Shown here piece by piece: positions 25,430 to 48,009 of a stretch of DNA of 48,009 nt (within the stretch, counting starts at the first letter, position 1; each line of letters starts with the position of its first letter). The notes beneath the pieces are model-generated. The model was not told the DNA's origin, ran no database searches, and saw only the letters and a list, made by a program, of their open reading frames with translations. The position numbers and the translations under genes were made by a program. Source of the DNA: Candidatus Omnitrophota bacterium (GTDB lineage Bacteria; Omnitrophota; Koll11; Zapsychrales; Fredricksoniimonadaceae); the NCBI GenBank assembly GCA_015233705.1, contig JADFXE010000001.1, forward strand, positions 1-48,009, given 5' to 3'.

Positions 25430-25430
25430 T

Positions 25431-29187: not shown

Positions 29188-29300
29188 TTCAACAATTTCA
29201 ACAATGCCTGATTTCCCATCCGCGTTAGAATAATTTCTTGACACATTTTAAGGTTGATTGGTATACTCTGCCACATTATTAGATTGTTGAAATGTTGAAT
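29188..29300. repeat. Inverted TTCAACAA repeats flanking a promoter
   Basis: TTCAACAATTTCAACAAT at 29188-29205 and its near-perfect reverse complement at 29283-29300 (one base shorter in the middle) enclose a promoter. A related direct copy lies at 28143-28163, at the beginning of the apbE frame. The gap 29116-29355 holds no gene. Confidence 0.75.
29238..29267 (+). promoter_or_regulatory. Strong predicted promoter before the HTH regulator and magnetosome genes
   Basis: Perfect TTGACA (29238-29243), an 18-nt spacer, and TATACT (29262-29267). It is the best promoter-like sequence just upstream of the regulator and mamI. It lies inside a pair of inverted repeats. Confidence 0.65.
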
Positions 29301-29334
29301 CACTTGGGATGTTTTATCACGCGCTTAAGTGATT
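29298..29334. promoter_or_regulatory. Candidate operator or leader hairpin
   Basis: AATCACTT (29298-29305) and AAGTGATT (29327-29334) are perfect 8-bp inverted arms about 31 nt downstream of the -10 box and 21 nt before the regulator start. Autoregulation by the HTH protein is a possible role. Confidence 0.45.
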
Positions 29335-29355
29335 AAATCGTATAAAGATAGGCTT

Positions 29356-29772
29356 ATGCAAGACCTTTCGAACTCAGCCCCGGTGCAGACGATCAACAGG
29401 TTTATGCCCAATCAATATTTCACAACTTCCCAGGCCGCAAAAATACTTCACGTTACCCGTTTCACTGTTCTTAATTGGATCAAGTCAGGCAAGCTTAAGG
29501 CTGTGGCAACCCTGGGTGGTCATCAGCGAATCCCCAAGCGTTCCCTTGAGGCTTTTTTGGATCAGGATCAATCATTAGGTCAGGCACCTCTTGCAGAGGC
29601 CGGCATTCAGGCACAGAAAGCTGATCATGAAGCGCCCAAGAGCGGTGTTTCCCAAAGGGCGGCTTTGGCGGCCCGCAAGGCCAATATTTCCCGCATGCTC
29701 AAAAGAAGTGCTTTCGTATCTGGAAAATATATCGCTTCGTTCAAGAACGAGGTTTCACATATTCTGGCATAA
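29356..29772 (+). CDS. MerR/excisionase-type HTH DNA-binding protein
   Basis: A 138-aa protein. The winged-helix segment 'YFTTSQAAKILHVTRFTVLNWIKSGKLKAV' with 'GGHQRIPKRSLEAFL' (residues about 22-67) matches the excisionase/BldC-type HTH family. The C-terminal half is basic and unassigned. I choose the ATG at 29356 with TAGG upstream; a GTG at 29329 lacks a ribosome binding site and lies in the inverted repeat. It stands directly before mamI behind a strong promoter, so it is a candidate regulator of the magnetosome cluster. That role is an inference. Confidence 0.75.
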   Translation: MQDLSNSAPVQTINRFMPNQYFTTSQAAKILHVTRFTVLNWIKSGKLKAVATLGGHQRIPKRSLEAFLDQDQSLGQAPLAEAGIQAQKADHEAPKSGVSQRAALAARKANISRMLKRSAFVSGKYIASFKNEVSHILA

Positions 29773-29828
29773 CGGCAGTAACAAGCGAAAAACTAAGGTT
29801 GTTGTTAACAACGGAAGGAGAAGGTGAA

Positions 29829-29999
29829 ATGGTTCATATTATCGGAGGTGCTATTGCAGCGTTATTGGGGCTCGTTGGCATTATCGGTTGGTGGGACAAT
29901 TTCGGCGATTTTCTGCGCGGGTCTTTGCCGCTGGCGCTGTTTATCGGCGGACTCATCGCGGTCAATACCGGTTTGAAGTTCCTGAAGGACAAGAAATAA
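29829..29999 (+). CDS. mamI: Magnetosome membrane protein MamI
   Basis: A 56-aa protein with two transmembrane helices (about 4-21 and 34-51) joined by a short loop. The pattern 'GLVGIIGWW-x-LRGSLPLAL-x-GLIAVNTG' follows proteobacterial MamI closely, with glycine-rich helices and a WW pair before the loop. MamI is needed for magnetosome membrane invagination in Magnetospirillum. The ATG follows a strong GGAAGGAGAAGG. It is shorter than typical MamI (about 70-77 aa) because the basic tail is only KFLKDKK. A terminator follows at once. Confidence 0.8.
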   Translation: MVHIIGGAIAALLGLVGIIGWWDNFGDFLRGSLPLALFIGGLIAVNTGLKFLKDKK

Positions 30000-30034
30000 G
30001 ATCCTCTGATCATAAGGTCAGCGGATCTTTTTTT
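29999..30034 (+). terminator. Rho-independent terminator after mamI
   Basis: AGATCCTCTGATC pairs with GGTCAGCGGATCT (12 of 13 pairs including one G-U, one mismatch) around an ATAA loop. A run of seven T follows (30028-30034). It begins on the last base of the mamI stop codon, so mamI should be expressed at a different level from the genes behind it. Confidence 0.8.
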
Positions 30035-30063
30035 CATGGGTACGGCAGCACATGTGAGGCGTC

Positions 30064-30285
30064 ATGATTGGCAAGAAGAATCAAAAATGTTTCAGCCCCT
30101 GGTTTGGATTCCTGGTCATTCTCGCGGTTTGTATCGTGATCGCAAGCGCGATCTTTTTTGAGTCCAAGGGCAGCCGCCGGCATCGCAGGGCGGTGCACAA
30201 GACGCCGGCGCCAGTCGCCATGCAGGCCGCATTCCCGAATCCGGGTCCTGGCACAGGTGCGACGGATGAGAAATTGGCATTTTGA
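30064..30285 (+). CDS. Small single-pass membrane protein of unknown function
   Basis: A 73-aa protein with a basic N-terminus, one transmembrane helix (about 13-32), then a strongly basic stretch (KGSRRHRRAVHK) and a Pro/Gly-rich tail. I recognise no family. It lies between mamI and the mamE-like gene, so it may be a lineage-specific magnetosome membrane protein. The upstream AGGCGTC gives only a weak ribosome binding site. The gap before mamE (30286-30353) shows no clear promoter. Confidence 0.5.
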   Translation: MIGKKNQKCFSPWFGFLVILAVCIVIASAIFFESKGSRRHRRAVHKTPAPVAMQAAFPNPGPGTGATDEKLAF

Positions 30286-30353
30286 TCCGCAATGGTTTGG
30301 TAAGTTGCCATTGAGGATTAACGAACGGTTAAAAGACGGACAGCGGAGTGGAT

Positions 30354-31739
30354 ATGCCGGAAGATAATAAGCCGCAAGATGGTAAAGACGAGTTTTGCAA
30401 TCAGCCGATCGGCCCCTGGATTATCGGCGTGGTCGCTCTTTCGATCATGTCGGTTTTTTGGGTCGTGATGAAGCGCGATGATATCTTGCAGGGCGCGGCC
30501 GAGGTGGAGCCGCCTAAGGTCAAGTTACCGATTCCCGGCGAACCATCATTTCCTAAAGGCGTTATTCCGGCAGCCATGCCAGTCCAGACGGATCAGAATT
30601 ACAAGGTCGCGGCCCTGACCAAGGCAACACCCAACGGCGGCATGCAGCTGGTGGCCAACCAGACCAACGTCGGTTTTCAGGATTCTTTGAAATTCGCTGT
30701 CAATGCGATCATCCCTTCGGTGTGTGACATTCATGCCCAGCGTATCGTCCGTTCTCCGGCGGGAAGGCCGGCCGTGGATGCCCAGAACATGCAGTTCGTT
30801 CCTCCGTTTAACGGCGTCATTGATAAATTTATCGAGAACAAGGGTTTTGAGAATATCGGGGCTGGCATCATTGTTGATGAACGCGGCTATGTCATGACTA
30901 ATTCGCACGTGACCTTTGAGGCCACGGATATTGTCGTGACGGTCTTTGGTTCGCCGGCCAAGGATTACCATGCCGATCTTGTGGCCCAGGATCCCAAGAC
31001 AGACCTGGCGCTTTTGAAGCTCAGGGCTGATGGTCCGTTTCCGGAAGCCATGATCGGCGATTCCAGTTTTACCCAGATCGGTGATTATGTGGTGGCCGTG
31101 GGCAGTCCATTCGGCATTGAGCAGACCGTGACCAGCGGGATCGTGAGCGGCATACGCAAGTCTATCGTAATCGAAGGTGTCCAGTACAAGAATCTTTTTC
31201 AGACCGACACGCCGATCAACCGCGGTTCCTCCGGCGGTCCGTTGGTCAATCTTAAGGGTGAGGTGATCGGGGTCGCGACCGCGATCTACGCACCGACCGG
31301 AGTTTTCAGCGGCACCGGCTTTGCCATCCCGATGAATGATTGTAAAGATTTTCTTTCGAGGAACCTGGGCAAGAACTATTCTTTCCCGGTCGATCAGAAA
31401 GGCATGCTGGCGGCCCAGCCGGTCGATATCCCCAATGTCAAGAAGGCCCCGGTGCCGATCCGTTTCGGGCTTGAGGTCATGCCCATGGATTCGGTCATCG
31501 CCAAGCATTTTGGGTTAAGGGATCAGCAGGGCGTCCTGGTTAACCGGGTCATGCATGGTTCACCAGCGGAGGATGCCGGTATCCAGCGCGGCGATGTCAT
31601 TCTTTCGGTGGCTGGCGTCAAGATCACGGACAAAGATGAGATTCCGAAGGTCGTCGCGAATTTCAGGGCTGGCGAGAACGTCAATGTGAAGATCCAGAGG
31701 AACGGCAAGATCGACGAGATATTGGTGAGGTTGCAATGA
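30354..31739 (+). CDS. mamE: MamE-like membrane-anchored HtrA serine protease
   Basis: A 461-aa protein. One transmembrane helix (about 20-39), a trypsin-like HtrA domain and a C-terminal PDZ domain (about 365-461). The catalytic triad is complete: H185 (TNSHVT), D217 (KTDLALL) and S293 (GSSGGPL). MamE sorts proteins to magnetosomes and cleaves MamE, MamO and MamP in Magnetospirillum. Unlike proteobacterial MamE, no CXXCH magnetochrome motif is present and only one PDZ is seen. The ATG at 30354 follows GGAG. A general DegP-like protease is the alternative; context strongly favours MamE. Confidence 0.82.
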   Translation: MPEDNKPQDGKDEFCNQPIGPWIIGVVALSIMSVFWVVMKRDDILQGAAEVEPPKVKLPIPGEPSFPKGVIPAAMPVQTDQNYKVAALTKATPNGGMQLVANQTNVGFQDSLKFAVNAIIPSVCDIHAQRIVRSPAGRPAVDAQNMQFVPPFNGVIDKFIENKGFENIGAGIIVDERGYVMTNSHVTFEATDIVVTVFGSPAKDYHADLVAQDPKTDLALLKLRADGPFPEAMIGDSSFTQIGDYVVAVGSPFGIEQTVTSGIVSGIRKSIVIEGVQYKNLFQTDTPINRGSSGGPLVNLKGEVIGVATAIYAPTGVFSGTGFAIPMNDCKDFLSRNLGKNYSFPVDQKGMLAAQPVDIPNVKKAPVPIRFGLEVMPMDSVIAKHFGLRDQQGVLVNRVMHGSPAEDAGIQRGDVILSVAGVKITDKDEIPKVVANFRAGENVNVKIQRNGKIDEILVRLQ

Positions 31740-32353
31740 AAACGAAAAAGAAGCCGGCGTCAGCTGTGATGTCAGATAATTTTCAGAGACAGGCCAAGGG
31801 CCTTTTCGAAAAGGTCAAGAAGTTTGCCGTGGCGCAGCCTGTGCTGTTTGCGGGGCTTCTGATCGCGGCGATCATTTTTGTTTGCTGGCTGGTGTCTTCC
31901 TGGGAACTCTGGCCTGAGGCGAAGGAGCCGCAGCCTGTGCAAAGAGGCGTTGTTATCGAAAAGGGTGACAGTGCATTGTGGCTGGGCATGGAAGTTGCGC
32001 CGGTCACAAGGACCATCAGGAAGGATTTCAAGATCCCCGGTAACATCAAGGGCATGTTCGTCATCAATGAGGGCAAAGAGCTTGCTGGGCAGTATGGCGT
32101 CAAGACGGCCGATGTTATTGTCTCCATCAGCCGCAGGGCTGTACCAACCTCGCGCGAGTTCATCAAGGTGGTCAATGGTGTTCCTTACCGCGAAGGGATC
32201 CTTCTGGAGATCTTCCGGGATGGGAAGAGTTTCTATCTGACCATTCCTTTTTCATATCAGTACGGTCCGCTCATGGGGCCTAATAAGGGAAGCTGGCAGC
32301 TCGGCTCGCCGCTTGTAGGACAGGGCATGCAGTACGGACCGGTTTTTAGATAA
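31736..32353 (+). CDS. Membrane-anchored single-PDZ protein
   Basis: A 205-aa protein with a basic N-terminus, one transmembrane helix (about 34-55) and one PDZ domain (about 80-172). 'LWLGMEVAPV' and 'IKGMFVINE' closely parallel 'HWLGMELIPL' and 'TKGLLIDEI' of the second PDZ of the MamP-like protein downstream, so the two domains share origin. No CXXCH motif. It overlaps mamE by 4 nt (ATGA) and may act as a separate PDZ arm of the MamE protease. A specific Mam name is not assigned. Confidence 0.68.
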   Translation: MKTKKKPASAVMSDNFQRQAKGLFEKVKKFAVAQPVLFAGLLIAAIIFVCWLVSSWELWPEAKEPQPVQRGVVIEKGDSALWLGMEVAPVTRTIRKDFKIPGNIKGMFVINEGKELAGQYGVKTADVIVSISRRAVPTSREFIKVVNGVPYREGILLEIFRDGKSFYLTIPFSYQYGPLMGPNKGSWQLGSPLVGQGMQYGPVFR

Positions 32354-32417
32354 AGCTATCAGCGCTCAGCTATCAGCTCTGTCAGCTGCTGAAAGCTGAA
32401 AGCTCAATGGAGGAAAT
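32354..32417. repeat. Intergenic CAGC/CTGA-rich hairpin repeat, copy 3
   Basis: AGCTATCAGCGCTCAGCTATCAGC followed by the complementary GCTGAAAGCTGAAAGCT. It fills the gap from the PDZ gene stop to the ribosome binding site AGGAAAT of the next gene. Confidence 0.78.
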
Positions 32418-33926
32418 ATGGTAAAGAAGCCGCAAGGGAAAAACCTCGAGAGATCCTTTGAGGAATTCAAGACGCAGTTTAAAAATGCCGACCTGAACAC
32501 CTATTTTATTTTCGGCGCGATCATCCTGATCCTGATCGTCGGTGTCTATGCGTTATTTTCTCCCGAAGCCAAGAGCGCCAGACAGGGGAATCCTGCTTGC
32601 GGCATGATCGTGATCGCGACAAATGGGACGGCTTTGGCCTCCAGCGTGGCAGCGAGCTTAAACGAGGCGCGTTATTTTCTGGTGGTCAATCCTCTGAATG
32701 GAAAGCATGTTGAAGCGCTCAAGAATCCCTATCGCGGGCCGGATCTGAATTCGCAGCTTGTTTATCTGATCGCCAGTAAAGGTGAAGAGGCGGTTATTGT
32801 CGGGAGCATTGACAAGCAAAGTTATGACATCCTCATGCAGTTTGGCATCCGGGTGTTCGGCGGGTATCAGGGCCAGGCAATGAAGGTCGTCAAACTTTAC
32901 CGTCAGGCCAGGATCGCGGCATCGCTTCAGCCAACGGATACTTTAGCTCAGCAGAACGTTGTTGTACCCCAGACGCCTCCGGTTGTTCAGCCCAATGCCC
33001 AGGTCGCTTTTGGTCCTGGGATGGGGTATGGGCGGGGCATGGGCGGCGGGAATGGTCCTTTCTGTCCCCTCCCCAATACCGTGCAGCAGGCCGGTGTCAT
33101 GCAGATGAACGCGATGCAGGCCAATGCCATGCCGGCAGGAATGGGAATGAATCAGTCTTATTGTCCGCTGCCCAACCAGCCGGTGGCCATGCAAGGTGGT
33201 ATGGGGATGTATCAGCAGCCGAATTGTCCGTTGCCTAACAGAATGCAGGCCATGGGGCAGGGTGTTCAGGCGGCTTTTGGCTGGGGTCAGCAGGCGTTTG
33301 TGTGCCCGGTCTGCAACTGGCGCATGAAGGCCAATCGCCAGGGGAACAGTTTCCCGAGCTGTCCGAACTGCGGGGCTCCATCCATGGCGTTGGACATGCA
33401 GAATCAGACTCAGAATAGAGAAGGGACGTTCTTTCCCGACGGGATCTTTGCGGCCAATCAGGCGCCGATGAATCAGCAATTCAATCAGATGCCTGTTCAG
33501 CAGAATTTCGGGCAGGGTGTTGATGTCAGCCGACCATTCATTTGTCCCAACTGCAACTGGCGGATGTACGCTCAACAGGGGATGAATGAATTTCCCCGCT
33601 GTCCTAATTGCGGCCAGGTCATGGCGTCAGCCGGCGGATACCCGCAAAATCAAAATTTCCAGAATCAGAATGTTCAGTACAACGCGGCGCCAAACGGATT
33701 TTACGGTAACGGGAATTTTGGCAACCAGGTTGCCATGGCACAAGCGACGCCGACGCAAGCGCCTCCGTTTGTTGAAGGCACGCCGATGCCCCACGCTTAT
33801 CGCGGGACGTGCACGAATTGTCATCAGATATTGCCGGCTCCGGCGGGCATGCAGAATAATCAGGCGCAGAATGTGCCGGTGCAACAGGATCCGAATTCAG
33901 CACGCATCGTCATTGGTGGGAAATAA
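32418..33926 (+). CDS. Chimera: NifX-like domain, zinc ribbons and a magnetochrome motif
   Basis: A 502-aa protein with a unique layout. One transmembrane helix (about 29-47) precedes a NifX/NifY dinitrogenase-cofactor-like domain (about 61-165; 'YFLVVNPLNGKHVEAL', 'QFGIRVFGGYQGQAMKVV'). A Met/Gln/Asn/Gly-rich linker carries three CPLPN motifs (216, 249, 270). Two near-identical zinc ribbons follow (C296/C299/C315/C318 and C376/C379/C395/C398, both with CNWRM). A magnetochrome-type heme site C465-TNC-H469, preceded by 'TPMPHAYRG', ends the domain series. Magnetochromes are known only from magnetosome proteins. The combination suggests iron or cofactor handling with electron transfer. Confidence 0.75.
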   Translation: MVKKPQGKNLERSFEEFKTQFKNADLNTYFIFGAIILILIVGVYALFSPEAKSARQGNPACGMIVIATNGTALASSVAASLNEARYFLVVNPLNGKHVEALKNPYRGPDLNSQLVYLIASKGEEAVIVGSIDKQSYDILMQFGIRVFGGYQGQAMKVVKLYRQARIAASLQPTDTLAQQNVVVPQTPPVVQPNAQVAFGPGMGYGRGMGGGNGPFCPLPNTVQQAGVMQMNAMQANAMPAGMGMNQSYCPLPNQPVAMQGGMGMYQQPNCPLPNRMQAMGQGVQAAFGWGQQAFVCPVCNWRMKANRQGNSFPSCPNCGAPSMALDMQNQTQNREGTFFPDGIFAANQAPMNQQFNQMPVQQNFGQGVDVSRPFICPNCNWRMYAQQGMNEFPRCPNCGQVMASAGGYPQNQNFQNQNVQYNAAPNGFYGNGNFGNQVAMAQATPTQAPPFVEGTPMPHAYRGTCTNCHQILPAPAGMQNNQAQNVPVQQDPNSARIVIGGK

Positions 33927-34008
33927 GTTTGGAGCTGCCAGCTCGCAGACTTCAGCTGACAGCTGATGACTGAAAGCTGATAGCGGATAGAAAAAGAAAG
34001 GGGTTCAT
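33927..34008. repeat. Intergenic CAGC/CTGA-rich hairpin repeat, copy 4
   Basis: GAGCTGCCAGCTCGCAGACTTCAGC followed by TGACAGCTGATGACTGAAAGCTGA, then AAAGAAAGGGG as the ribosome binding site of the next gene. A more diverged copy than the others. Confidence 0.7.
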
Positions 34009-34269
34009 ATGGGCAAGCCGATCATTTGCACACATTGTAACGGTGAGATGCAGCAGTATTCAGGTCCTCGCTATAACCGCAGGGTCGCCGGGTTCTTTAT
34101 CATCGGCGGTATTGTGGCAACGCTTTTTTGGATCGGCGCGGTTCTGGGCATTCCGCTGATCATTATTGGTCTTTATATGCTGGGAGCCAAGAGGGACCTG
34201 TGGGTTTGCAAAGAGTGCAATACCGCGATCGAACGGTTCAACATCGATTCTGACAAGTTAGGGAAATAG
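34009..34269 (+). CDS. Small zinc-ribbon membrane protein
   Basis: An 86-aa protein with a CTHC pair (residues 7-10), two transmembrane helices (about 27-58) and a CKEC pair (about 66-69) followed by an acidic/basic tail. The Cys pairs on both sides of a helical hairpin could join to form one zinc ribbon on the cytoplasmic side. It lies between the magnetochrome chimera and mamP, so a magnetosome role is likely by context. No family recognised. Confidence 0.6.
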   Translation: MGKPIICTHCNGEMQQYSGPRYNRRVAGFFIIGGIVATLFWIGAVLGIPLIIIGLYMLGAKRDLWVCKECNTAIERFNIDSDKLGK

Positions 34270-34278
34270 CGGAGTCTT

Positions 34279-35463
34279 ATGCCCATTGAACTAGAAAAAT
34301 TCCGTCAGATCAAGCGACAAAAGACACTGCTTGTGGTTGTCCTTGTGGCCTTGGCTCTGTTCATCATCGCAGCGCTCATGCATATCGGCGCTGGCGACGC
34401 TGAATGGGGCGGGATGTCGGTCTCCAATCCCACACCGTCACTCAGGATGGAATTCAGCATCCCTAAAGATGAACAGGGTGTGGTTGTCGACTGGGCCGAG
34501 GACCCGGCGTATTCTGCCGGCGTGCGCAGCGGCGACCTTATCAAGGCGATCAACAATCAGCCCATCACCGGTCTTCCGGATTTTCTGAAGGTCACCAACA
34601 AGACCAGCCTGCAGCCCGGCGTCCTTTTGGATATTCTTCGCAATGGCCAGCCGCTGTATATCACCATGGAGTACAAGGTCGGCATTCATGACAAATTGAA
34701 ACAAGCTCTGAATATTGATCCGGGAACAACAGGCAAAAAGAACGCGGTTGAGCCTGCTGGCAATGGCCAGGCTGGCGCAGCTGCTGCTGAAACACCGGGA
34801 ATGGTTCCTGTGGCATTCGCCAACCGTTTACCTGCTGAAACAGCCGAGGCCGGGGCCGCGCCTGTGACGGCAGCTCCGAATGTGCCTGCGGTCCAACTTC
34901 CGACCCCAAAAGAACAGGGTGCGGCGCAAAAAGAACTTGTGGAAGGTCACTGGCTGGGGATGGAGCTTATTCCGCTTGTGCCGGAACTGGCCAAGGAGTA
35001 TAAAGTCCCGCCGGATACCAAGGGTCTTCTGATCGATGAAATATGTCTTGAGGCAGCCGAATCCGGAGTGTTGGCCGGAGACATGGTTGTCGGTGTTAAT
35101 GGCTATGCCACGCCTGACCTGGTTGCTTTTACGGAAGCCACCAGACGGGTCAAGAACCGGCATCAGGCGCAGATACTTGTTTCCCGGCGCGGACAGTTGA
35201 TGGAGTTCACTATTTCTTCCGTTAGGACCATGGGTTTCTCGCAGAACGAGGCGGCCCAGCCGATCACGCCAGGTGCGCTGAGCCCTCACCGCAGCAGGAA
35301 CAAGCCGTGCACGACCTGTCATATCATCATGATCACCGGCGGACAGCTTCCGACCGATGCGGGCGATATATTGCCCAGCCCGCCGCCGATCACCAAGGGC
35401 GCGGTCGCTCCGCATGAGTACCGCGGTCAGTGCAAGAACTGCCACTTTATTCTGAAGAAATAG
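34279..35463 (+). CDS. mamP: MamP-like protein: two PDZ domains and two magnetochromes
   Basis: A 394-aa protein with one N-terminal transmembrane helix (about 16-35), PDZ1 (about 50-135), an Ala/Pro-rich linker, PDZ2 (about 225-315) and two magnetochrome motifs, C344-TTC-H348 and C385-KNC-H389, each led by the 'PIT-GA--PH' element. MamP is a c-type cytochrome with a PDZ dimer that oxidises iron(II) during magnetite growth. Two PDZ domains are unusual for MamP (one is typical), recalling MamE without the protease. Naming follows the PDZ-MCR order and absence of a protease. Confidence 0.82.
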   Translation: MPIELEKFRQIKRQKTLLVVVLVALALFIIAALMHIGAGDAEWGGMSVSNPTPSLRMEFSIPKDEQGVVVDWAEDPAYSAGVRSGDLIKAINNQPITGLPDFLKVTNKTSLQPGVLLDILRNGQPLYITMEYKVGIHDKLKQALNIDPGTTGKKNAVEPAGNGQAGAAAAETPGMVPVAFANRLPAETAEAGAAPVTAAPNVPAVQLPTPKEQGAAQKELVEGHWLGMELIPLVPELAKEYKVPPDTKGLLIDEICLEAAESGVLAGDMVVGVNGYATPDLVAFTEATRRVKNRHQAQILVSRRGQLMEFTISSVRTMGFSQNEAAQPITPGALSPHRSRNKPCTTCHIIMITGGQLPTDAGDILPSPPPITKGAVAPHEYRGQCKNCHFILKK

Positions 35464-35506
35464 CAGTGAAAATTCTTGGAAGACTTGTAAGGATGAGGAC
35501 AATCTG

Positions 35507-35782
35507 ATGAAGGTCGCAACAGTATTAAAGATAATAGCAGGACTCTTGGTCGTTGTTTTTTTTGGGTTCTTTGTCTTTGAGAATCTTGATCCTGTGCGCA
35601 TTTGGCTTCCGCTGATCAAGAACCGCCAGTGCGGTTTGATCTATATTATCGCGATCTCCTATATTATCGGCTTGTCGAACATGTTTTGGCTGATGGTCCA
35701 TTTTGGCGCCCGGATGAAGAGAAAACAGCAGGAAGGCGCGGCAGTGGAAGAGGGTCAGGAGTTATTCGAAGATGAAGCTTGA
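35507..35782 (+). CDS. mamL: LapA-domain/MamL-like small membrane protein
   Basis: A 91-aa protein with two transmembrane helices (about 7-26 and 43-64) around a short periplasmic loop (NLDPVRIWLPLIKNRQ), then a basic 'ARMKRKQQE' stretch and an acidic tail. The size, topology and basic segment after the second helix are those of MamL, required for magnetosome vesicle formation. The same layout defines the LapA (DUF1049) family, so MamL identity depends on context. It overlaps mamM by 11 nt. Confidence 0.55.
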   Translation: MKVATVLKIIAGLLVVVFFGFFVFENLDPVRIWLPLIKNRQCGLIYIIAISYIIGLSNMFWLMVHFGARMKRKQQEGAAVEEGQELFEDEA

Positions 35783-36662
35783 GAGCAAGAAAGATCCCAA
35801 GAAGTGCGAGTCCTGCGCGCGCAAGACGATCCTGCTGGGGATCGTGGCGAACATCTTTCTTGCGGCGTTTAAGCTCTTTGTCGGTTTCTTAGGACGCAGC
35901 CGTGCCTTGGTCGGCAGCGGGTTGTGCAACCTGAGCGATGTCGGCGCCTCGATCGTCGTTATTCTCGGTGTGCGTTATTCCAAAAAGCCAGCGGATGAGA
36001 AGTATCCTTACGGTTACGGCAAGATCGAGTTTATTGCCCAGGTCGGGATGAGCGCTTTGATGATCCTGGGTACGCTCGCGCTGATCCTAAGTTCGTTCAT
36101 TGTCATTGCGAAGAAGGTCATTATTATCCAGCACACGGTCGTCTTTTTTGTGGCGATCCTGAGCGCGATCATCAGCGGCCTTCTCTATAAGTTTTCCCAT
36201 TGCGGCGGCAAGGAATTGAACAGCCCTTCCTTGAAGGCCCACGCGGAGCACAACAAGATCGACGTTGTCTCAGCGCTTTTGGTCGCTGTCGGTGTGGTCC
36301 TGACGCGTTTTGGCTTGCACTGGATCGATCCTTTGATCGCTATCCTCGAGTGCGCACACGTCCTTCATGCCAGTTTCGGCATCCTCAAAGATGGGCTTAA
36401 GGGCATCATGGATACAAACCTGCCGGACACCTATCTTGAGAATATCAAGAACCGGGTCCTGTCGGTGAAGGGGATTAAGAAGGTGGGCCAGGTGCGCGCG
36501 CGCCAGACAGGACGGAAGATCGTTCTGGATGTCACTATGCAGATGGATCCGAACATCAGTGTTGTTGAGGCCAAGAGCATCAATCAGGCGGTCCGCGCTC
36601 TGTTGCGCAGCGAGGACAGGTATATCGGCAATATCGCCATACAGGTCGTTCCGGCGGAATAA
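35772..36662 (+). CDS. mamM: Cation diffusion facilitator MamM
   Basis: A 296-aa CDF transporter that brings iron into the magnetosome. Six helices are followed by a cytoplasmic dimerisation domain. An N-terminal CESC pair, 'KKPADEKYPYGYGKIEFI', metal-site D56 and H160/D164 (HNKID), and 'WIDPLIAILE' match MamM better than MamB. The next gene is the MamB counterpart, so the pair may form the known heterodimer. Confidence 0.87.
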   Translation: MKLESKKDPKKCESCARKTILLGIVANIFLAAFKLFVGFLGRSRALVGSGLCNLSDVGASIVVILGVRYSKKPADEKYPYGYGKIEFIAQVGMSALMILGTLALILSSFIVIAKKVIIIQHTVVFFVAILSAIISGLLYKFSHCGGKELNSPSLKAHAEHNKIDVVSALLVAVGVVLTRFGLHWIDPLIAILECAHVLHASFGILKDGLKGIMDTNLPDTYLENIKNRVLSVKGIKKVGQVRARQTGRKIVLDVTMQMDPNISVVEAKSINQAVRALLRSEDRYIGNIAIQVVPAE

Positions 36663-41193: not shown

Positions 41194-41205
41194 CAAGGAT
41201 ACTCC

Positions 41206-42252
41206 ATGTCTGACAAGAATGAAGCAGTTTACGATTGGACGAGTTATGTCAAGATAGGCCTGGTTGTGGCCGTTGTTCTTCTGGCGTTTGTGGCCATGTT
41301 CAGCCCGTCTAAGACCGCGGCCCCGGCGGCGCAGTCGATGCAGCTTTCGTTGGGTGGGCAGCAATCGATCCTGGCCGCGCTGCCGCAGGCGATAGGTCAG
41401 CCTGCTGCCGGCCCGACTGTCATTCCGGATCAGCCGTTCTGGATCCTGGTCGCGACCGGTTTTCTGATCGGATGTTACGGGACCATTGTCGGTATTGGCG
41501 GCGGTCCGATCATCCTGCCGCTGCTGGTATTTTTTTACGGTTGGGAGAATGAACTTCTGGTGGCCACGTCACTTTTTATCGTCTTTTTGAATGCCGGCTC
41601 TGGCTGTCTCGGTTATTCCATGCAAAAGCGAATCGACTATAAGGGCGGTCTGCAGTTCACGCTGGCGGCTATGCCCGGTGCTCTGATATCAAGTTTCACG
41701 CATCATCTGGTTAACCTGAGTTTCTTCAATGTCATCTTTGGTGTCTTTCTGATCTTCCTTTCTGTTTATACGATCTTCAGCGTCGGTCGGGTGGACAAAA
41801 CCGATGCTCAGGAACAGGAACTTCTCAAGGTGGCCAAGGCCGAAGGATACCGCCGGGTCAGGTTTACGGACAGCTTTGGCGTTAAGTATGATTTTTATTC
41901 GAACGACAAGCTTGGTATCGCGATGAACCTGCTGTTGGGATTCTTTTGCGGATTTCTTGGTATCGGCGGCGGCGTGTTCCAGGTGCCGATCCTGATATTC
42001 CTCTTGAGATATCCGTCGCATATTGCGACCGCGACGAGCCACTTTGTCACGCTTTTGACCTGCGCGATCGCGCTGTTGCCGCACGTCTTTTTGGGCAATG
42101 TCTGTTATGGTGAAGCCATGTGGATGGGTGTTGGCGTCATCGCCGGCGCTCAGCTTGGCGCGCGTATCGCGCCCAAGCTGAACACCAAGGTCACGCTGTA
42201 TCTGTTCGTGGTCATTCTGGTGGTCCTGGCGATCAAATTATTCTTTGTGTAA
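41206..42252 (+). CDS. TauE/SafE permease, like the C-terminal half of MamO
   Basis: A 348-aa protein. A first helix (about 10-28) and a Pro/Ala-rich spacer precede eight helices of the TauE/SafE family, with paired motifs 'GTIVGIGGGPIILPLLV' and 'GFLGIGGGVFQVPILIFLL'. In proteobacterial MamO a protease-like domain is fused to a TauE domain. Here only the permease half exists, as a separate gene in the cluster. The substrate (an anion or organosulfonate in other members) is unknown in magnetosomes. Confidence 0.78.
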   Translation: MSDKNEAVYDWTSYVKIGLVVAVVLLAFVAMFSPSKTAAPAAQSMQLSLGGQQSILAALPQAIGQPAAGPTVIPDQPFWILVATGFLIGCYGTIVGIGGGPIILPLLVFFYGWENELLVATSLFIVFLNAGSGCLGYSMQKRIDYKGGLQFTLAAMPGALISSFTHHLVNLSFFNVIFGVFLIFLSVYTIFSVGRVDKTDAQEQELLKVAKAEGYRRVRFTDSFGVKYDFYSNDKLGIAMNLLLGFFCGFLGIGGGVFQVPILIFLLRYPSHIATATSHFVTLLTCAIALLPHVFLGNVCYGEAMWMGVGVIAGAQLGARIAPKLNTKVTLYLFVVILVVLAIKLFFV

Positions 42253-42344: not shown

Positions 42345-42929
42345 ATGAAAAAAATTCTGTTGGCAGCGACGTTGGCTCTTGTGTCGTCGGGTTGCTGCAG
42401 TCTGTCCCCGCTCCCGAGCAATGACGCATCCCATCTTACTCCGAGAATTGAGACGGCACTCGCTGGCAAGGGGAGTATCAAGGAAATGGTTGTCCTTAAT
42501 TTGGGCAATGCGCGCACACTCATTATTAAGCTGAACCTAGACCCGGCTATTGAGGAAGAGTATGCTCTCAATGCCATGCGCGCTTTGGAGCGTGATCCTG
42601 CGATCCCCATGGTTGACGATGTGTCCGTTGTGGTGGAACAGACTAAAAAGGTTGCTTTATCAAGGCAGATGCTCAGTGGGGCTGCCCAGGGATTTGTGCA
42701 GGGACTGGCCGGTGTTTCCGGGCCAGTAAGCACTGATTCAACGGATGATGTGACCACGTTCTCCTGTTACAGCACCAGGGAAGATCTGTTGAATGGTAAG
42801 GAGCCTATAGTGAAGGTCCGCCATGCAGTTTACGTTTCAGGGCGGTATGAGGGGCAGAGCACAGATTCCCTCTGGTTGACTGAGAAGAAAGAGAATAAAG
42901 ATAACAAAACTCCCGGGGCGAAAGAGTAG
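42345..42929 (+). CDS. Predicted lipoprotein of unknown function
   Basis: A 194-aa protein with a signal peptide and lipobox LVSSGC (C17 lipidated). The middle has a short beta-alpha pattern ('MVVLNLGNARTLIIKLNL') and a hydrophobic glycine-rich stretch (about 105-125, 'GAAQGFVQGLAGVSG'). The tail is Lys/Glu-rich. I do not recognise a family. It sits between clear magnetosome genes, so an envelope role tied to that cluster is possible. Confidence 0.6.
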   Translation: MKKILLAATLALVSSGCCSLSPLPSNDASHLTPRIETALAGKGSIKEMVVLNLGNARTLIIKLNLDPAIEEEYALNAMRALERDPAIPMVDDVSVVVEQTKKVALSRQMLSGAAQGFVQGLAGVSGPVSTDSTDDVTTFSCYSTREDLLNGKEPIVKVRHAVYVSGRYEGQSTDSLWLTEKKENKDNKTPGAKE

Positions 42930-42973
42930 GCTCGGGATACTTGGCGCTGGCATGCGTCTTAGAAAGGGATCCT

Positions 42974-43546
42974 ATGAAGAAAGAATATATCATCGGCTTA
43001 TTTGGCATCGGATTTCTTATTGTTCTCCTGATTGCGATCTTCTCTAATAATACCGTGCAGGATGTGTCCCAGGATGCTTTGCATGAGATCAGGACCGCTG
43101 ACATGTTCAAGCAAGCGGCCTATCCGGGTGGCGCGAACTGTCCGTTGCCGCAGGCAGGGGCGCAGGGATATTATCCTTACCAGGGCCAGGCCGGGATGCA
43201 GCAGGCAGCCATGGCCGGCGCTCCGCCGATCACGGCAGGTCAGGATGTTCCGGTGCTCATCAAGATTATGGGCGTTGAGGCGATTCAGGTTGGCGGCGGC
43301 AAGGTCAAGATTACAGGTGTGATGGGCAGTTCCTGGGCTGAAAAAGCTGGTTTGCAGGAGGGAGATATCCTTCTTTCGTTCAATACTAAAGATATTACTA
43401 GTTTGCAGCAGTTCCAGGACCTTTTGGCCAAGGCGCCGCCGGAGAAAGATGCGAAGATCGTTTATATGCGCGGACTGAGGAAGAAGAAGGGCATTATCTT
43501 TATTGGCGAAGGTGAGATGGAAGGGTTTTTGCCGATCAAGCGCTAG
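42974..43546 (+). CDS. Membrane-anchored PDZ protein with CPLPQ motif
   Basis: A 190-aa protein with one transmembrane helix (about 4-23), a Gln/Gly/Ala-rich segment with a CPLPQ motif (56-60), a 'PPITAG' element resembling the lead-in of a magnetochrome but with no CXXCH after it, and a PDZ domain (about 95-180, with 'GSSWAEKAGLQEGDILLSF'). The ATG at 42974 follows AAGGGATC; an in-frame start at 42941 lacks support. The CPLP motif is shared with the NifX/magnetochrome chimera. Confidence 0.68.
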   Translation: MKKEYIIGLFGIGFLIVLLIAIFSNNTVQDVSQDALHEIRTADMFKQAAYPGGANCPLPQAGAQGYYPYQGQAGMQQAAMAGAPPITAGQDVPVLIKIMGVEAIQVGGGKVKITGVMGSSWAEKAGLQEGDILLSFNTKDITSLQQFQDLLAKAPPEKDAKIVYMRGLRKKKGIIFIGEGEMEGFLPIKR

Positions 43547-43635
43547 GCCGCTGGATTGGATCGATCGAAGTTGCATTTTATACCGCACCTTAGCAAATTT
43601 TTCAAAAAAGACTTTGGAAAATCCGGCATCCGGAT

Positions 43636-43983
43636 ATGATGATAAAACAATTCAAGAAGCAGATGGCTTCCTTTCTGAACGATACTGCCCGCGAGGGCAT
43701 CAGGAAGCTGGACAAGAATTCGCCGCTGACCCGCGAACTGAGTGCGCTTGATGTTGATGCTATCCTGAAAGAGGACATTCATCAGATCTGCGAGGAAGTG
43801 ACTTTTCCCGAGATGGTCAAGATCATGTCCCTGGGGGCCAAGTACAAGCTTGGTTCCGGCGATGGGAAACGTATTAAAGAAGATCTCAAGACAATGGCCA
43901 AGGCCATCGAAGAAAGGATCGAGCGGAAGAAGGGAAAACTGAAGACCCCTGTTTCCTGTCGCGATCTGCTTTTTAATCTCTAG
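43636..43983 (+). CDS. Small helical protein of unknown function
   Basis: A 115-aa, mostly helical, charged protein with no membrane segment. Two ATG codons in tandem (43636, 43639) make the start uncertain by one residue; no clear ribosome binding site is visible. It lies 89 nt after the PDZ gene, in a gap with no obvious promoter, and 15 nt before the AmaP-like gene. Not recognised. Confidence 0.55.
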   Translation: MMIKQFKKQMASFLNDTAREGIRKLDKNSPLTRELSALDVDAILKEDIHQICEEVTFPEMVKIMSLGAKYKLGSGDGKRIKEDLKTMAKAIEERIERKKGKLKTPVSCRDLLFNL

Positions 43984-43998
43984 GAGGACGGTGTTTCG

Positions 43999-44793
43999 AT
44001 GAAATCATTGCTGATCAAGGTTTTTATGATGGTCGCTTCCGCGTTTTGCATGCTGGAAGGACTTGTGCTTGTTGCGGTCGGATTGGGGCGGCTTCCTTCG
44101 GACAGGCTGCTGGCCGCATATAACACTTTAATGGCTACGCCCAAGGCGCTTACATCCATTTTGGGTGTGGGCGCTTTCTTTGTCACGCTGGGATTCATTC
44201 TTCTGGTTTTATCTTCCCGCACCAGGCCGGCGCCGCATGTCATTGATGTTGAGAAAGACGGCAAGCCGCTGAGCATTCCGGAGAAGGCGGTCAGGAATTT
44301 TATTCTGCAGATCATTGAGCAGAATCCCTGCGCGTCAGATGTCAGCGTGGAATTTGAACATACGGGCAAGAAGGATGTCGAGATTCTTATTGCCATTGGT
44401 TTGGATGGCGTTTCATCGATTTACGAAGAACTGAACGAGATCGAGAAGGTGCTCGAGGCTGAACTGGGACGCGTTTTTGAGTGGAAAGGTTTCAAGATCA
44501 CGTTCCACCTGCGCGGGGTCGGCGTTGACAAGAAGAAGAAATATTTTGCGGCCGCTGTTGTTGCGCCTTCTGCGCCTGCGGTTGAGAACAAGGCTGAGCC
44601 GGTGAATAATGAACAGCCGGTTGCGGTTGATGAAGTCGTTAAGTCAGAAGCGACCGAGGAATCGGTGCCTGTTGAAATGATCGATCAGGTCGCGGAGCCG
44701 CAGGCCGAGGAGTCGTCGTCAAAACGAAAAGCAAAAGAGCAGCACCCGTCGCTGTTTTCAAAGATGCTTTTTGGGGAACACAATGCCCGTTAG
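43999..44793 (+). CDS. AmaP/Asp23-like membrane protein
   Basis: A 264-aa protein with two N-terminal transmembrane helices (about 5-28 and 53-74), then an alpha-beta domain (about 90-175; 'KAVRNFILQIIEQNPCASDVSVEF') that resembles Asp23/DUF322 domains of the AmaP membrane anchor. A long acidic, Val/Pro/Glu-rich tail ends it. Asp23-AmaP coats membranes in Gram-positive cells. Its presence before feoB in a magnetosome cluster is unexpected. The match is by layout and pattern only. Confidence 0.55.
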   Translation: MKSLLIKVFMMVASAFCMLEGLVLVAVGLGRLPSDRLLAAYNTLMATPKALTSILGVGAFFVTLGFILLVLSSRTRPAPHVIDVEKDGKPLSIPEKAVRNFILQIIEQNPCASDVSVEFEHTGKKDVEILIAIGLDGVSSIYEELNEIEKVLEAELGRVFEWKGFKITFHLRGVGVDKKKKYFAAAVVAPSAPAVENKAEPVNNEQPVAVDEVVKSEATEESVPVEMIDQVAEPQAEESSSKRKAKEQHPSLFSKMLFGEHNAR

Positions 44794-46762
44794 TCGAACG
44801 GAAAATCAGCAGAATCTTGTTAGTAGTTTGCCCGACATGGCGAAGATGAGAAAAGTCGCTATTGTCGGCCTTCCTAATACTGGAAAAACCCAGATCTTCA
44901 ATAACCTTACCGGCGAATACAACATTGTCGCCAATTATCCCGGCACCACCATCGAGATGAAACGGACGGTCACTCGGATCAAGGATCATCTTTACGAGAT
45001 CATTGATACGCCGGGCCTGCACTGCCTGTATATTCATTCCGAGGAAGAGATCGCGGTCCGTGACATGATCCTGGCGGAAGCGCCGGATGTCATTGTTCAG
45101 TGCATTGACGCCAGCCAGCATAAACAATCGTTTTTGCTTACCGCCGAGCTTCTGGAGTTGGAGATACCGATGGTCGTGGTCCTTAATTCCATGGACGAAA
45201 CGGCGCGCAAGGGGATTTGGATCGATTCCGCCCAGCTGGAGCGGACGCTCGGCGTTCCGGTCGTTGAGTCGATCGCCCTGCGCGGTCTGGGCAAGGAAGA
45301 GCTGAAAGATGCGATCATTAAGGCGCGCCGGAGCACTCTGAATGTCAAGTACGGTTATCGCATCGAAAGCTGCATTACGGAACTTGCGGCGGAATTGCCG
45401 TTCGACTTGGAATTCAAGCACAAGATTGCGCTCCTTCTTTTGTCGGGCGATTCTTTCGTGGAGAAGTATCTAGAGAGGAGATTTGGCAAGGAGCGAACGG
45501 CTCTTGTGCGCATGGAGGTCAACAAGTCCCGTCGTCAGATCAAAGGGAACATGCGCCAGGTGCTTGTCGACAGGCGCAGCCGCTGGGTTGATCAACTGAC
45601 GGCCGCGGTCGTCAGGAAGCAAAAGATAACCTACCAGGGGTTTTCTCACCATATTACCCAGGCCAGCCGGGATCCTTTTTTGGGGATACCAATCTTCTTG
45701 TCGCTCATGGCGGTTGTGTATTTAGGCGTGGTGTACGTCTCGGGCGCTTTGGACACCTTTATCAACTTCCTTATCGTGAAGCCTGTGACCGGGGCGATCA
45801 GCGCCTTGGCGCTGCCGCTATTCTGGAATGATCTTTTGATCGGCAATCACGGCATTCTGACGATCGGTATCTTTAACGCGATATGTACGGTTCTTCCGAT
45901 CCTGTCTGTTTTCTTTTTTATCTTCGGCTGTTTTGAGGACAGCGGGTACATCACGAATTTCACGGTTTTTTCCAAACGGCTTTTTAAAAAGATCGGGATC
46001 CCGGGCAACGCGATCACCTCTCTTGTTTTGGGATTCGGCTGCAAGACCATGGCCACCCTGACCACCCGGGGGCTCACGGTGCCCAAGGAAAAGTTCATTG
46101 CAACATTCCTGATCGCCTTTGCTATTCCCTGTTCTGCCCAGCTCGGCATTTCTATGGCTATTCTGGCGCGCGTTGGCTTGAGCGCTTTTCTGATCGTCTT
46201 CGGGGTTCTGGTCCTTTGCGAGGTAGGGGCGGGGATGCTCCTTAACATGATGATCAAAGGCAAAGAAGAAAGCTATTTCATCCAGGTGATCCCGCCCATG
46301 CGTTTTCCGAGCATGAGGGCGGTCTTTCGCAAGACCTATCACCGCATCGTGGATTTTCTCAAGGAGGCGTTCCCGATCTTTTTGTTGTCAGCGATCGGCC
46401 TGTTCGCCTTTGACAAAAGCGGTCTTTTGTCCCTGACCAAACAGGCCATGACCCCCATGGTCGTGGGCTGGATGGGATTGCCCAAGGATATCATTGATGT
46501 TTTTCTTCTCGCACTTGCACGACGTGAAGCGGCCGCCGGTCTTATCCTCAAGATGGTGGACGCAGGATCACTCAGTTATGTTCAATCCATTGTCGCGGTG
46601 GTTGTCACGACGATCTCTTTTCCCTGTGTGGCCAATGTCATTGCCATTGGCCGGGAAATGGGCTGGAAGACCGCGGTCTCGATGACTGTGCTGATCTTTC
46701 TTTCGTCGTTTCTCCTGGTCGGGGCATTGAATTGGGCCTTGGTCCTGATTTTTCACGCTTGA
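44783..46762 (+). CDS. feoB: FeoB-like ferrous iron transporter
   Basis: A 659-aa protein with a cytoplasmic G domain (G1 GLPNTGKTQ at 29-37, G2 'YPGTTIE', G3 DTPG at 75-78, G4 NSMD at 135-138) and two Gate-type membrane halves with 'GFGCKTMA', 'IPCSAQL' and 'ARREAAAGLI'. The usual Thr of GKTT is Gln here and G3 has DTPG in place of DLPG. It is shorter than E. coli FeoB (773 aa). FeoB-like genes (called mad17, from memory) are part of many non-alphaproteobacterial magnetosome clusters. The ATG at 44783 overlaps the previous gene by 11 nt. Confidence 0.88.
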   Translation: MPVSRTENQQNLVSSLPDMAKMRKVAIVGLPNTGKTQIFNNLTGEYNIVANYPGTTIEMKRTVTRIKDHLYEIIDTPGLHCLYIHSEEEIAVRDMILAEAPDVIVQCIDASQHKQSFLLTAELLELEIPMVVVLNSMDETARKGIWIDSAQLERTLGVPVVESIALRGLGKEELKDAIIKARRSTLNVKYGYRIESCITELAAELPFDLEFKHKIALLLLSGDSFVEKYLERRFGKERTALVRMEVNKSRRQIKGNMRQVLVDRRSRWVDQLTAAVVRKQKITYQGFSHHITQASRDPFLGIPIFLSLMAVVYLGVVYVSGALDTFINFLIVKPVTGAISALALPLFWNDLLIGNHGILTIGIFNAICTVLPILSVFFFIFGCFEDSGYITNFTVFSKRLFKKIGIPGNAITSLVLGFGCKTMATLTTRGLTVPKEKFIATFLIAFAIPCSAQLGISMAILARVGLSAFLIVFGVLVLCEVGAGMLLNMMIKGKEESYFIQVIPPMRFPSMRAVFRKTYHRIVDFLKEAFPIFLLSAIGLFAFDKSGLLSLTKQAMTPMVVGWMGLPKDIIDVFLLALARREAAAGLILKMVDAGSLSYVQSIVAVVVTTISFPCVANVIAIGREMGWKTAVSMTVLIFLSSFLLVGALNWALVLIFHA

Positions 46763-46797
46763 TTTTCTAGTAGACGATCATTCGAAGGAAACACTCC

Positions 46798-47670
46798 ATG
46801 CAACATCCGGCCACTACCGGAAACTGGTTCGCGGACAGGCAGTCCCTTGTCCTTATGATCGGGGGCGCACTCTTGGCGATCCTTTTGGCAGCCAATTTTT
46901 TGACCAATGACTCGCCGGACCGTGCGCGCATCGTGCGTCTGCAGGGGCATGTCACCATCGAGCGCGGCAGCGAGACTATGGACGCCAGCGTGGGCGCTCT
47001 GCTGAATCCCAAGGATAAGATCATTACCAGTGAAGGCGCTTTTGTCGAAGTAGCTTATGATGATATCTTGAAGGATGTCATGCGGATCGGCGCTAACTCC
47101 AGGGTCGTCTTTGAAAGCGCCCGCATCGAGAAGAAGACAACGCTGTTCATGGACAAAGGCGAGATCAAGCTCAAGCTGGACAGTCTGGAGAAAGGTTCGG
47201 CCTTCAATATCCGCACGCCGGTGGCGATCGCCGGTGTCCGGGGCACGGCTTTTGGCATCCAGCTCAATGACAAGGAAGCTCAGATCACGGATTATGAGAG
47301 CCGGATATTTGTCAAAGGCCTGACCGAGGATCACCTGGAGATGCAGGATGAGCTGCTTCTTAACAGCGGATGGAAGGTCCAGGTAGCGCAGTTCGAGCGG
47401 CCGTCGCATGTCCAGATGTTGAGCGACAGGGATCGGACCGAGTGGAAATCCTGGCTGGTTGAGATCGGCGCCTTGTCGAGTGCAGCTGCGGCGAGCAATG
47501 TCGCGTCGGCCGGTGTCAGTGATATTCAAGACGAAATATGGCGCAGGCCGGTAGCGTTCCTGGCTGCGGTTAGAACAAAAGTTTCATCGTCTCCATCGGC
47601 TTTGGCCTTGATGCTGTTTGCGGTCTTGGCCCTGGGGACAGGAAAGGTTGTGGAGCGGGTATGGCTATAA
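46798..47670 (+). CDS. FecR-domain membrane protein
   Basis: A 290-aa protein with an N-terminal helix (about 17-36), a periplasmic FecR domain (about 42-175; 'IVRLQGHVTIERGSE', 'GEIKLKLDSLEKGSAFNIRTPVAIAGVRGTAFGIQ') and a C-terminal helix (about 262-280). FecR in iron-citrate systems relays signals to a sigma factor, but this version has no cytoplasmic anti-sigma part at its N-terminus. It lies between feoB and a DtxR-type regulator, so it may take part in iron sensing. Confidence 0.78.
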   Translation: MQHPATTGNWFADRQSLVLMIGGALLAILLAANFLTNDSPDRARIVRLQGHVTIERGSETMDASVGALLNPKDKIITSEGAFVEVAYDDILKDVMRIGANSRVVFESARIEKKTTLFMDKGEIKLKLDSLEKGSAFNIRTPVAIAGVRGTAFGIQLNDKEAQITDYESRIFVKGLTEDHLEMQDELLLNSGWKVQVAQFERPSHVQMLSDRDRTEWKSWLVEIGALSSAAAASNVASAGVSDIQDEIWRRPVAFLAAVRTKVSSSPSALALMLFAVLALGTGKVVERVWL

Positions 47671-48009
47671 AAAGGAATGAAGAGCAGGATGAACACATCG
47701 AACAGCTCTGGTATATGAAAGAGCAGAGCGAGACTTCGATCGATTTTTTGAAGAAGGCTATGAAGCGGGCTTTTGATTCCAAGGTCATTGAGGAGCTCTC
47801 TTGCCTTGGCCTGATCGAGCGTATCCCGGAGACGGGTAGCATCAAATTGACCGCCGATGGTGAAGTCAGGGCTACTCAGTTAATTCGGGCGCACCGGCTG
47901 GCCGAGCGCCTGGTGGTTGATGTTTTGGGCGGCGGCGAGGTCGAGGACATTGCCTGTGAATTCGAGCATACGGTTTCACTTGAGCTTGTTAACGGCATTT
48001 GTACGCTTC
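47661..48009 (+). CDS. DtxR-family iron-dependent regulator (3' end outside window)
   Basis: The first 116 residues of a gene cut by the right edge. The winged-helix tail 'ELSCLGLIERIPETGSIKLTADG' and the metal-binding dimer domain are visible: 'RAHRLAERL' gives H and E equivalent to H79/E83 of DtxR, and 'CEFEH' matches C102-x-x-E105-H106. The Cys, present in iron-sensing DtxR but replaced in manganese-sensing MntR, points to Fe(II). The N-terminal HTH is less regular than in typical DtxR. It overlaps the fecR-like gene by 10 nt, with GGAG 5 nt before the ATG. Confidence 0.8.
   Translation, partial: MAIKRNEEQDEHIEQLWYMKEQSETSIDFLKKAMKRAFDSKVIEELSCLGLIERIPETGSIKLTADGEVRATQLIRAHRLAERLVVDVLGGGEVEDIACEFEHTVSLELVNGICTL

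Follow-up and report, generated by a model that had tools for sequence, protein, structure and literature searches.

Described magnetosome clusters and identity of the new locus

The mamAB operon of Magnetospirillum holds mamI, E, P, L, M, B, A, Q and N. A magnetosome gene cluster (MGC) type of the phylum Omnitrophota has been in print since 2018 (PMC5955933) and 2020 (PMC7602337), and from the deltaproteobacterium RS-1 the genes fmpA, fmpB and tauE have been described (PMC4287615). The DNA analysed in this study, called the window, is a stretch of 48,009 nucleotides (contig JADFXE010000001.1, positions 1 to 48,009, assembly GCA_015233705.1) deposited under the name Candidatus Omnitrophota bacterium. 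Judged by gene content, kinship and order, the final 20 kb of this stretch almost certainly represent an MGC, and very probably the main magnetosome cluster of the genome of this uncultured bacterium. The cluster type is already known, and the window adds one further species to the type published in 2018 and 2020.

The core genes mamA, B, E, I, M, P and Q were found together in the window, accompanied by a mamL-like gene, a PDZ-mamN fusion, a stand-alone tauE and feoB. MamM and MamB fell inside Mam clades, apart from housekeeping cation diffusion facilitators (CDFs), proteins with magnetochrome (CXXCH) domains were present, and gene order and content matched those of the lineage. All genes named in a preliminary description of the window (mamI, E, P, an L-like gene, M, B, A, Q, an N fusion, a permease resembling the C-terminus of MamO, and feoB) were confirmed on the forward strand. 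An Omnitrophota host can hardly be doubted from the protein comparisons: the closest organism-named relatives of MamB were Omnitrophota metagenome-assembled genomes (MAGs) with 81-88% identity (among the matches listed, 120 of 534), in agreement with the earlier placing of the cluster outside the Proteobacteria.

Phylogeny and metal sites of MamB and MamM

Scanning genome contigs with the MamB alignment gave at least 79 loci, headed by the Omnitrophota MAGs nDJH2bin18 (locus L001), nDJH6bin5 (L002) and nDJH2bin13 (L003). A CDF tree of 135 rows was built from 142 CDF reads after removal of four duplicates (L001, L002) and five sequences outside 250-400 amino acids (aa), with two window rows added. 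MamM and MamB of the window were each located within Omnitrophota clades, and 42 housekeeping-type rows formed one separate side with a support of 98; "housekeeping" is our own label for rows of the low-ranked loci L035-L079 except L041, L056 and L061, given without checking these loci for mam genes. In a slower tree of 97 rows, window MamB grouped with 11 other Omnitrophota rows (100/97), next to a Planctomycetota row (100/99), and window MamM with 11 other Omnitrophota rows (100/100), with six housekeeping rows set apart (92/93). These six were kept out of the 42 (eight loci were picked, two being excluded by a 345-aa limit); the same limit excluded at least two rows of magnetotactic bacteria (L012, L033), and three long-branch Omnitrophota CDFs were left out. 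In neither tree did MamM or MamB group with housekeeping-type CDFs; such a grouping was what the preliminary description had named as telling against its claim.

By alignment to FieF, with residues matched by eye, the transport site consists of H45, D49, E153 and D157 in MamB and of C52, D56, H160 and D164 in MamM. The site residues were invariant in 14 rows for each protein, 12 of them distinct.

Gene order and gene content

According to tblastn with the window proteins, all cluster genes except the open reading frame at 42345-42929 are present in order in nDJH2bin18. The Omnitrophota MGCs of Lin et al. 2018/2020 (nDJH2bin18, nDJH2bin13, nDJH6bin5; PMC5955933, PMC7602337) have, as far as the excerpts and loci go, the same gene set and order as the window. 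Compared with L001, the named Mam proteins and TauE are 71-95% identical, and the window differs by one extra gene (42345-42929) and by a cut-off 3' end. In fetched segments read manually, the orders mamI-E-P and mamM-B-A-Q-N-tauE were kept in eight Omnitrophota genomes (G001, G002, G124, G138, G194, G202, G319 and G381), which excludes a chance grouping; insertions of about 8-10 kb occur in several relatives.

From about 28.1 kb to the window end the genes form a single co-directional set on the forward strand, and the GC content is 50-54% all along the window with no step at the MGC. The probable first cluster gene is apbE, of the flavin transferase family (28117..29115; PF02424, 242.3 bits; the start may be the ATG at 28138), which by manual tally lies close to mamI in 11 of 14 MGC-bearing genomes. 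It is followed by the gene of an HTH_17 (MerR-like) DNA-binding protein (29329..29772; PF12728, 49.8 bits), a candidate regulator of the cluster, whose homologue heads both clusters of genome G347. The product of mamI (29829..29999; 56 aa; NF040963, 46.4 bits, cut-off 80 not reached) is 75-95% identical in 11 of the 14 MGC segments, and an unnamed 73-aa protein with a single transmembrane (TM) segment (30064..30285), without family match, is likewise found in 11. The HtrA-type protease MamE (30348..31739) has one PDZ domain, scored 237.9 bits with NF040960 (cut-off 800) and 102.5 bits with PF13365, and is outscored by a general Do-protease model (291 bits); its Ser/His/Asp motifs are intact by eye and CXXCH is absent. 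A short protein with TM and PDZ-like parts (31736..32353; PDZ_1, 17.5 bits, cut-off 28; NF040965, 30.7 bits; both sub-cut-off) may be compared with FmpA of RS-1. MamP (34279..35463; PF18509, 53.3 bits; NF model, 212.8 bits, cut-off 300) consists of an N-terminal PDZ followed by a MamP-type PDZ and two magnetochrome CXXCH motifs. Its residues 217-392 align to the solved MamP 4jj0 (E 3.8e-40), with MamP-type PDZ and double magnetochrome in both and the N-terminal PDZ extra in the window protein.

Downstream of mamP, the mamL-like gene (35507..35782; 91 aa) proposed in the preliminary description is supported by its position, length, orthologues and a TM scan (two TM-like stretches, a basic and then an acidic tail), but it has no family match in the Pfam/NCBIfam profile scans. 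Next come the CDF transporter genes mamM (35772..36662; MamM model 242.6 bits, cut-off 350, versus 189.4 with the MamB model) and mamB (36671..37582; MamB model 226.3 bits, cut-off 350, versus 215 with the MamM model), the TPR scaffold gene mamA (37629..38468; NF040959, 142.8 bits, cut-off 200), mamQ of the LemA family (38554..39375; NF040966, 110.4 bits, cut-off 250; PF04011, 100.8 bits), and the PDZ-mamN fusion, a transporter with an N-terminal PDZ (39391..41193; NF040989, 243.7 bits, cut-off 500; PDZ_2, 35.8 bits). The tauE-type permease (41206..42252; PF01925, 190 bits) resembles the MamO C-terminus (NF040961, 31.9 bits to MamO 373-648). The lipoprotein-like frame at 42345..42929 gave no family match and no match in the 79 loci compared or in the 14 MGC segments, and is followed by a TM+PDZ protein (42974..43546; PF17820, 40.2 bits).

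U115, an all-helical 115-aa protein (43636..43983), precedes a two-TM membrane anchor (43999..44793) named only AmaP-like here, as NF033218 gave 43.4 bits and the cut-off of 55 was not reached. Ferrous iron uptake is represented by feoB (44783..46762; TIGR00437, 337.3 bits, above the cut-off of 315.65), followed by a FecR-domain protein for which the TM scan shows a TM-like stretch at either terminus (46798..47670; PF04773, 41.7 bits) and a dtxR-type iron regulator (47661..48009; PF02742, 46.4 bits), inside which the window, and probably the contig, stops. A full-length orthologue (L223; G347) combines a metal-binding repressor (PF02742, 80.5 bits) with a FeoA domain (PF04023, 37.0 bits). U115, AmaP-like, feoB, fecR and dtxR genes were kept together in G001, G002, G124 and G194.

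The content mamI, E, P, L, M, B, A, Q and N is common to the window and Magnetospirillum mamAB. Unlike that operon, the window has no full mamO and no mamK, its PDZ is fused to mamN, and its MamE carries no CXXCH.

The NifX-Cys4-magnetochrome protein

In the 502-aa FmpB analogue encoded at 32418..33926 (forward strand), an N-terminal TM is followed by a NifX domain (PF02579, 23.0 bits, under the cut-off of 26.3), a G/M/N/Q-rich stretch with two Cys4 knuckles of the form C-x2-C-x15-C-x2-C, and a C-terminal magnetochrome. With 33.8 bits for PF18509 and one CXXCH it is, besides mamP, the second gene above the magnetochrome cut-off of 30.4. The protein is nearly Omnitrophota-specific: 50 homologues including itself were found, and the 15 organism-labelled ones comprise 14 Omnitrophota and one Planctomycetes (manual tally). 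Matches by phmmer were MTH1175 and MamP, and Foldseek matched the NifX-type structures 1o13 (TMt 0.82), NafY and NifX of NifEN. In the AlphaFold model, with a mean predicted local distance difference test (pLDDT) value of 57.7, confidence is high for the NifX part, the first knuckle (83-93) and the TM helix, lower for the second knuckle (65-80), and lacking elsewhere. Cys61 was invariant in all 29 aligned sequences (28 of the 49 other homologues plus the window protein). At least one Cys4 match occurred in 44/50 homologues and at least one CXXCH in 46/50; among 117 Cys4 matches overall, 82 had the spacing 15 and 8 the spacing 22, the latter including CXXCH pairs. The two knuckles of the window protein are absent from the homologues of L001 and L003, so they are not essential. 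For a rubredoxin reading of the knuckles, Foldseek gave only weak zinc-ribbon-type matches (N-terminal domains of MCM, with E values from 0.15 upwards). A CPLP-type motif considered as heme or metal ligand was dropped as variable, with at least one CP[LIMV]P in 26/50 homologues (manual tally).

A stand-alone TauE, a PDZ-only protein and a protein with NifX and magnetochrome are shared with RS-1 (PMC4287615). The pairing of NifX and magnetochrome in one magnetosome-cluster protein is FmpB-like, and the window protein was rejected as a first case of it because both parts occur in FmpB. The domain order is NifX then magnetochrome in the window and, according to the excerpt of PMC4287615, the reverse in FmpB; Cys4 repeats are a further feature of the window protein, judged against the published description of FmpB. 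The c-type heme motif suggests that the window protein would face the lumen, and a redox role there has about an even chance.

Accessory genes linked to the cluster

The occurrence of the accessory genes was determined in a subset of a larger group of Omnitrophota genomes, comprising 384, 14 of them MGC-bearing and 370 MGC-negative. The magnetochrome domain search gave matches in 13 of the 384 and in 0/14 control genomes. Genome G318, with U115 and AmaP-like genes, no magnetochrome and no Mam-type MamB, was counted as the fourteenth because contig C56 of this genome breaks off just behind mamI; for the same truncation it was set aside as a counter-example. G141 was counted by its magnetochrome match, and has no MamB match and none of the three accessory genes.

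Three unnamed genes are tied to MGC presence in Omnitrophota. That of an 86-aa membrane protein with a CxxC at each end (two-CxxC protein; 34009..34269, forward strand) was present in 12/14 MGC-bearing and 0/370 other genomes (Fisher 5e-21), the AmaP-like gene in 12/14 versus 1/370 (G294, a weak match of 18.6 bits; 7e-20), and U115 in 11/14 versus 0/370 (6e-19). Without the shift of G318, the counts are 12, 11 and 10 of the 13 magnetochrome-positive genomes, respectively, and G318 then adds one hit each for U115 and AmaP-like. The channel gene flanking the cluster, taken as a control, was enriched too, but less (13/14 versus 70/370; 1e-8); all these Fisher values ignore kinship. The earlier suggestion that undescribed magnetosome functions are best sought among the interleaved unnamed genes gains from these counts, but the NifX-magnetochrome combination (FmpB) and the stand-alone TauE have precedents in RS-1 (PMC4287615).

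The two-CxxC protein has 91 relatives (24 were aligned with the window protein). Those with a name are called "hypothetical protein", and the organism-labelled ones are Omnitrophota save one Planctomycetes MAG; weaker relatives (30-35%) lie in mam-gene loci of Desulfobacteraceae (L026) and Oligoflexia (L056). For U115, a predicted model with pLDDT 86.4 was built from two sequences, and 0/91 structure matches among PDB folds reached E<=0.001. A tentative possibility is that U115 and the AmaP-like protein are FeoB partners. In the open-access literature, supplements and subscription papers lying outside the search, the accessory genes were not found described, FmpB aside, and none of the listed matches for rubredoxin, zinc ribbon, ApbE or AmaP held an MGC term.

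The accessory genes could instead be passengers without a magnetosome role that a single clade has passed on, as the position of most MGC-bearing genomes in one part of the channel tree and the lack of NifX-protein knuckles in L001 and L003 might indicate. We regard this as rather doubtful. In the channel tree (32 rows, with 18 of the 70 MGC-negative channel genomes; a gene tree and not a species tree), the MGC-bearing rows need three changes, of which the starred branches force two, and G194 and G352, which carry all three genes, stand apart from the rest, so that a single clade is not the full explanation of the link. The flanking channel gene is, moreover, far less tied to the MGC, and the two-CxxC relatives occur in mam loci of two other phyla.

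Boundaries and neighbouring genes

The 5' end of the MGC most likely lies at apbE (about 28117), because MGC-negative loci keep the upstream genes without apbE or runs of mam genes. The extent of 29188..48009 in the preliminary description holds apart from its ends, since apbE (about 28117-29115) is to be counted with the cluster and the dtxR-like gene is truncated by the window end. Upstream lie genes for SpoIIE, RsbW, STAS, MlaEFD and TPR-ion channel proteins, a block that was considered as part of the MGC and rejected, apbE and the HTH gene excepted. The channel gene is present in 83/384 Omnitrophota genomes, including 70 MGC-negative ones (by manual count about 36 of the 70 have a nearly full-length gene, whereas most others show just the channel domain). 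Around it, 18 MGC-negative loci were fetched: the upstream block was mostly kept in six (G186, G331, G176, G065, G298 and G369), and an apbE match and a run of mam genes were each found in 0/18. Weak matches in these 18 loci were LemA-type in two (26-28%), TPR in one (27%) and FecR in seven (23-30%). Most MGC-bearing genomes show the order channel, apbE, HTH gene, mamI; in G194 and G319 the channel gene is located elsewhere. The SpoIIE phosphatase, RsbW, two STAS genes and the MlaEFD set (window 21964-27300) make up a partner-switching block, which occurs in Omnitrophota with and without MGC.

Downstream of the dtxR region, G001 encodes two HEAT-repeat proteins, ParA and tandem actin-like proteins, the first with a volactin-family match of 263.6 bits and the second 44% identical to the first. 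Its MamK (436.4 bits, cut-off 400) is encoded upstream on the contig carrying its MGC. According to PMC12748827, FmpA and FmpB belong to the magnetosome proteins of the early stage, and proteins of the coiled-coil/HEAT and actin-like kinds are involved in chain order; this fits the HEAT/actin-like and Fmp anatomy seen here. Beside mamK in G001 (L126, 3290-3967, reverse strand) lies a VIT1/CCC1-like iron transporter gene with a rubrerythrin-like N-terminus, recognised by eye only. In G319 (L220, 4290-6435) an actin-like tandem, 41-44% identical to that of G001, adjoins the channel gene that flanks MGCs elsewhere, and G002 (L133-L135) has two similar mamL-M-B-A-Q-N-tauE blocks on contigs C11 and C16.

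Alternative explanations and mineral type

Several points weigh against the interpretation given above. Every Mam score with the NCBIfam models lies under the NCBI curated cut-off, so that an automatic naming rule would not assign Mam names; kinship was for this reason based on trees and gene order. Neither mamK (best MamK tblastn match 26.2 bits, E 0.077) nor rRNA was found in the window, for both of which the preliminary description had looked to the rest of the contig, and the phylum was assigned from protein neighbours because of the missing rRNA. A full mamO was not found in the window either, only the TauE resembling its C-terminus. In G138, feoB is missing from the position that it normally occupies between the AmaP-like gene and fecR, and the literature disagrees on the mineral. 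Since the window stops inside the cluster and the relative G001 has MamK, the lack of mamK and mamO lowers completeness and not membership; Bdellovibrionota MGCs are likewise described without mamK (excerpt of PMC13200544). The sub-cut-off scores, together with the plain "cation transporter" annotation of MamB orthologues at NCBI, would also suit a mere metal-homeostasis or stress operon, in which housekeeping CDF, HtrA, LemA and TPR genes are grouped by chance beside feoB. This is scarcely credible, with the 42 housekeeping-type CDF rows on a separate side of the tree, magnetochrome domains above cut-off, and a gene order and set equal to those of MGC-bearing MAGs. The missing mamK, and the reported silent persistence of an MGC in a non-magnetic bacterium (PMC9938234), could point to a decaying or inactive remnant, but those genes that relatives also have are long open frames arranged in an identical order, and the metal sites and CXXCH motifs are intact, which makes a remnant very improbable.

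According to the excerpt of PMC7449369, Omnitrophica Mam proteins cluster with the greigite group, whereas that of PMC7602337 describes most MGCs as of Fe3O4 type and lists putative Fe3S4-type genes for just two genomes of Omnitrophota. For the window, greigite type would be the less likely option. Its MamB in the 97-row tree forms a fork (92/78) with Nitrospirota MamB, e.g. of Ca. Magnetobacterium casense. The other CDFs to be compared, the second pair in Desulfamplus magnetovallimortis, taken here as the greigite set of that organism, are not part of this fork, but their two rows are long or unresolved. A better greigite candidate is a second, different CDF/magnetochrome cluster in six genomes.

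This second, divergent cluster lies near the first in L144 (G347 contig C58, 4.9-13.5 kb) and in segments of G124, G194, G381, G319 and G002. It encodes an HTH protein, a single-knuckle NifX, NapH-like and PDZ proteins, a double magnetochrome and a distant CDF pair, the gene calls being made by eye except for tblastn hits; its CDF was found in the six MGC genomes. In L144 (4.7-13.6 kb), the second cluster of G347 is situated between a homologue of window 15151-15999 and a sulfate-binding protein, and at the corresponding site of the window (15999-18114) an Rrf2 regulator and a porin are encoded instead.

Proposed working of the cluster and significance

The gene set, kinship and order of the MGC were read from the sequence; the functional steps are inferred from the protein families. 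MamI, L, Q and B would bend the inner membrane into vesicles. FeoB, controlled by the DtxR-FeoA regulator and perhaps assisted by U115 and the AmaP-like anchor, would bring Fe(II) into the cell, and MamB/MamM would transport iron on into the vesicle. Protons or anions may be moved by MamN and TauE, and MamE may cleave partner proteins. MamP and the NifX-Cys4-magnetochrome protein could keep the lumenal Fe(II)/Fe(III) balance through c-type heme, with MamA as putative scaffold. Chain positioning could be served by HEAT-repeat, ParA and actin-like proteins and MamK, which in a relative lie on either side of the extent covered by the window.

The general picture of what an MGC is remains unchanged by the window. 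The mineral of Omnitrophota is disputed in print (excerpts of PMC7449369 versus PMC7602337) and the phylum is uncultured. With a collinear cluster in one more species and three MGC-tied unnamed genes, a short list is available for expression or deletion in tractable magnetic bacteria. One speculative possibility, to which we give less credence than to its failing, is an iron module of the Omnitrophota's own, composed of a lumenal wire protein (NifX, Cys4, magnetochrome heme) and a vesicle-coupled FeoB. If true, the wire protein, with its rubredoxin- or zinc-ribbon-like Cys4, would hold an Fe or Fe-S store and feed or drain electrons during crystal growth, and U115, the AmaP-like anchor and the two-CxxC protein would link FeoB to the vesicle. 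These would then be magnetosome functions without counterpart in the studied Alphaproteobacteria.

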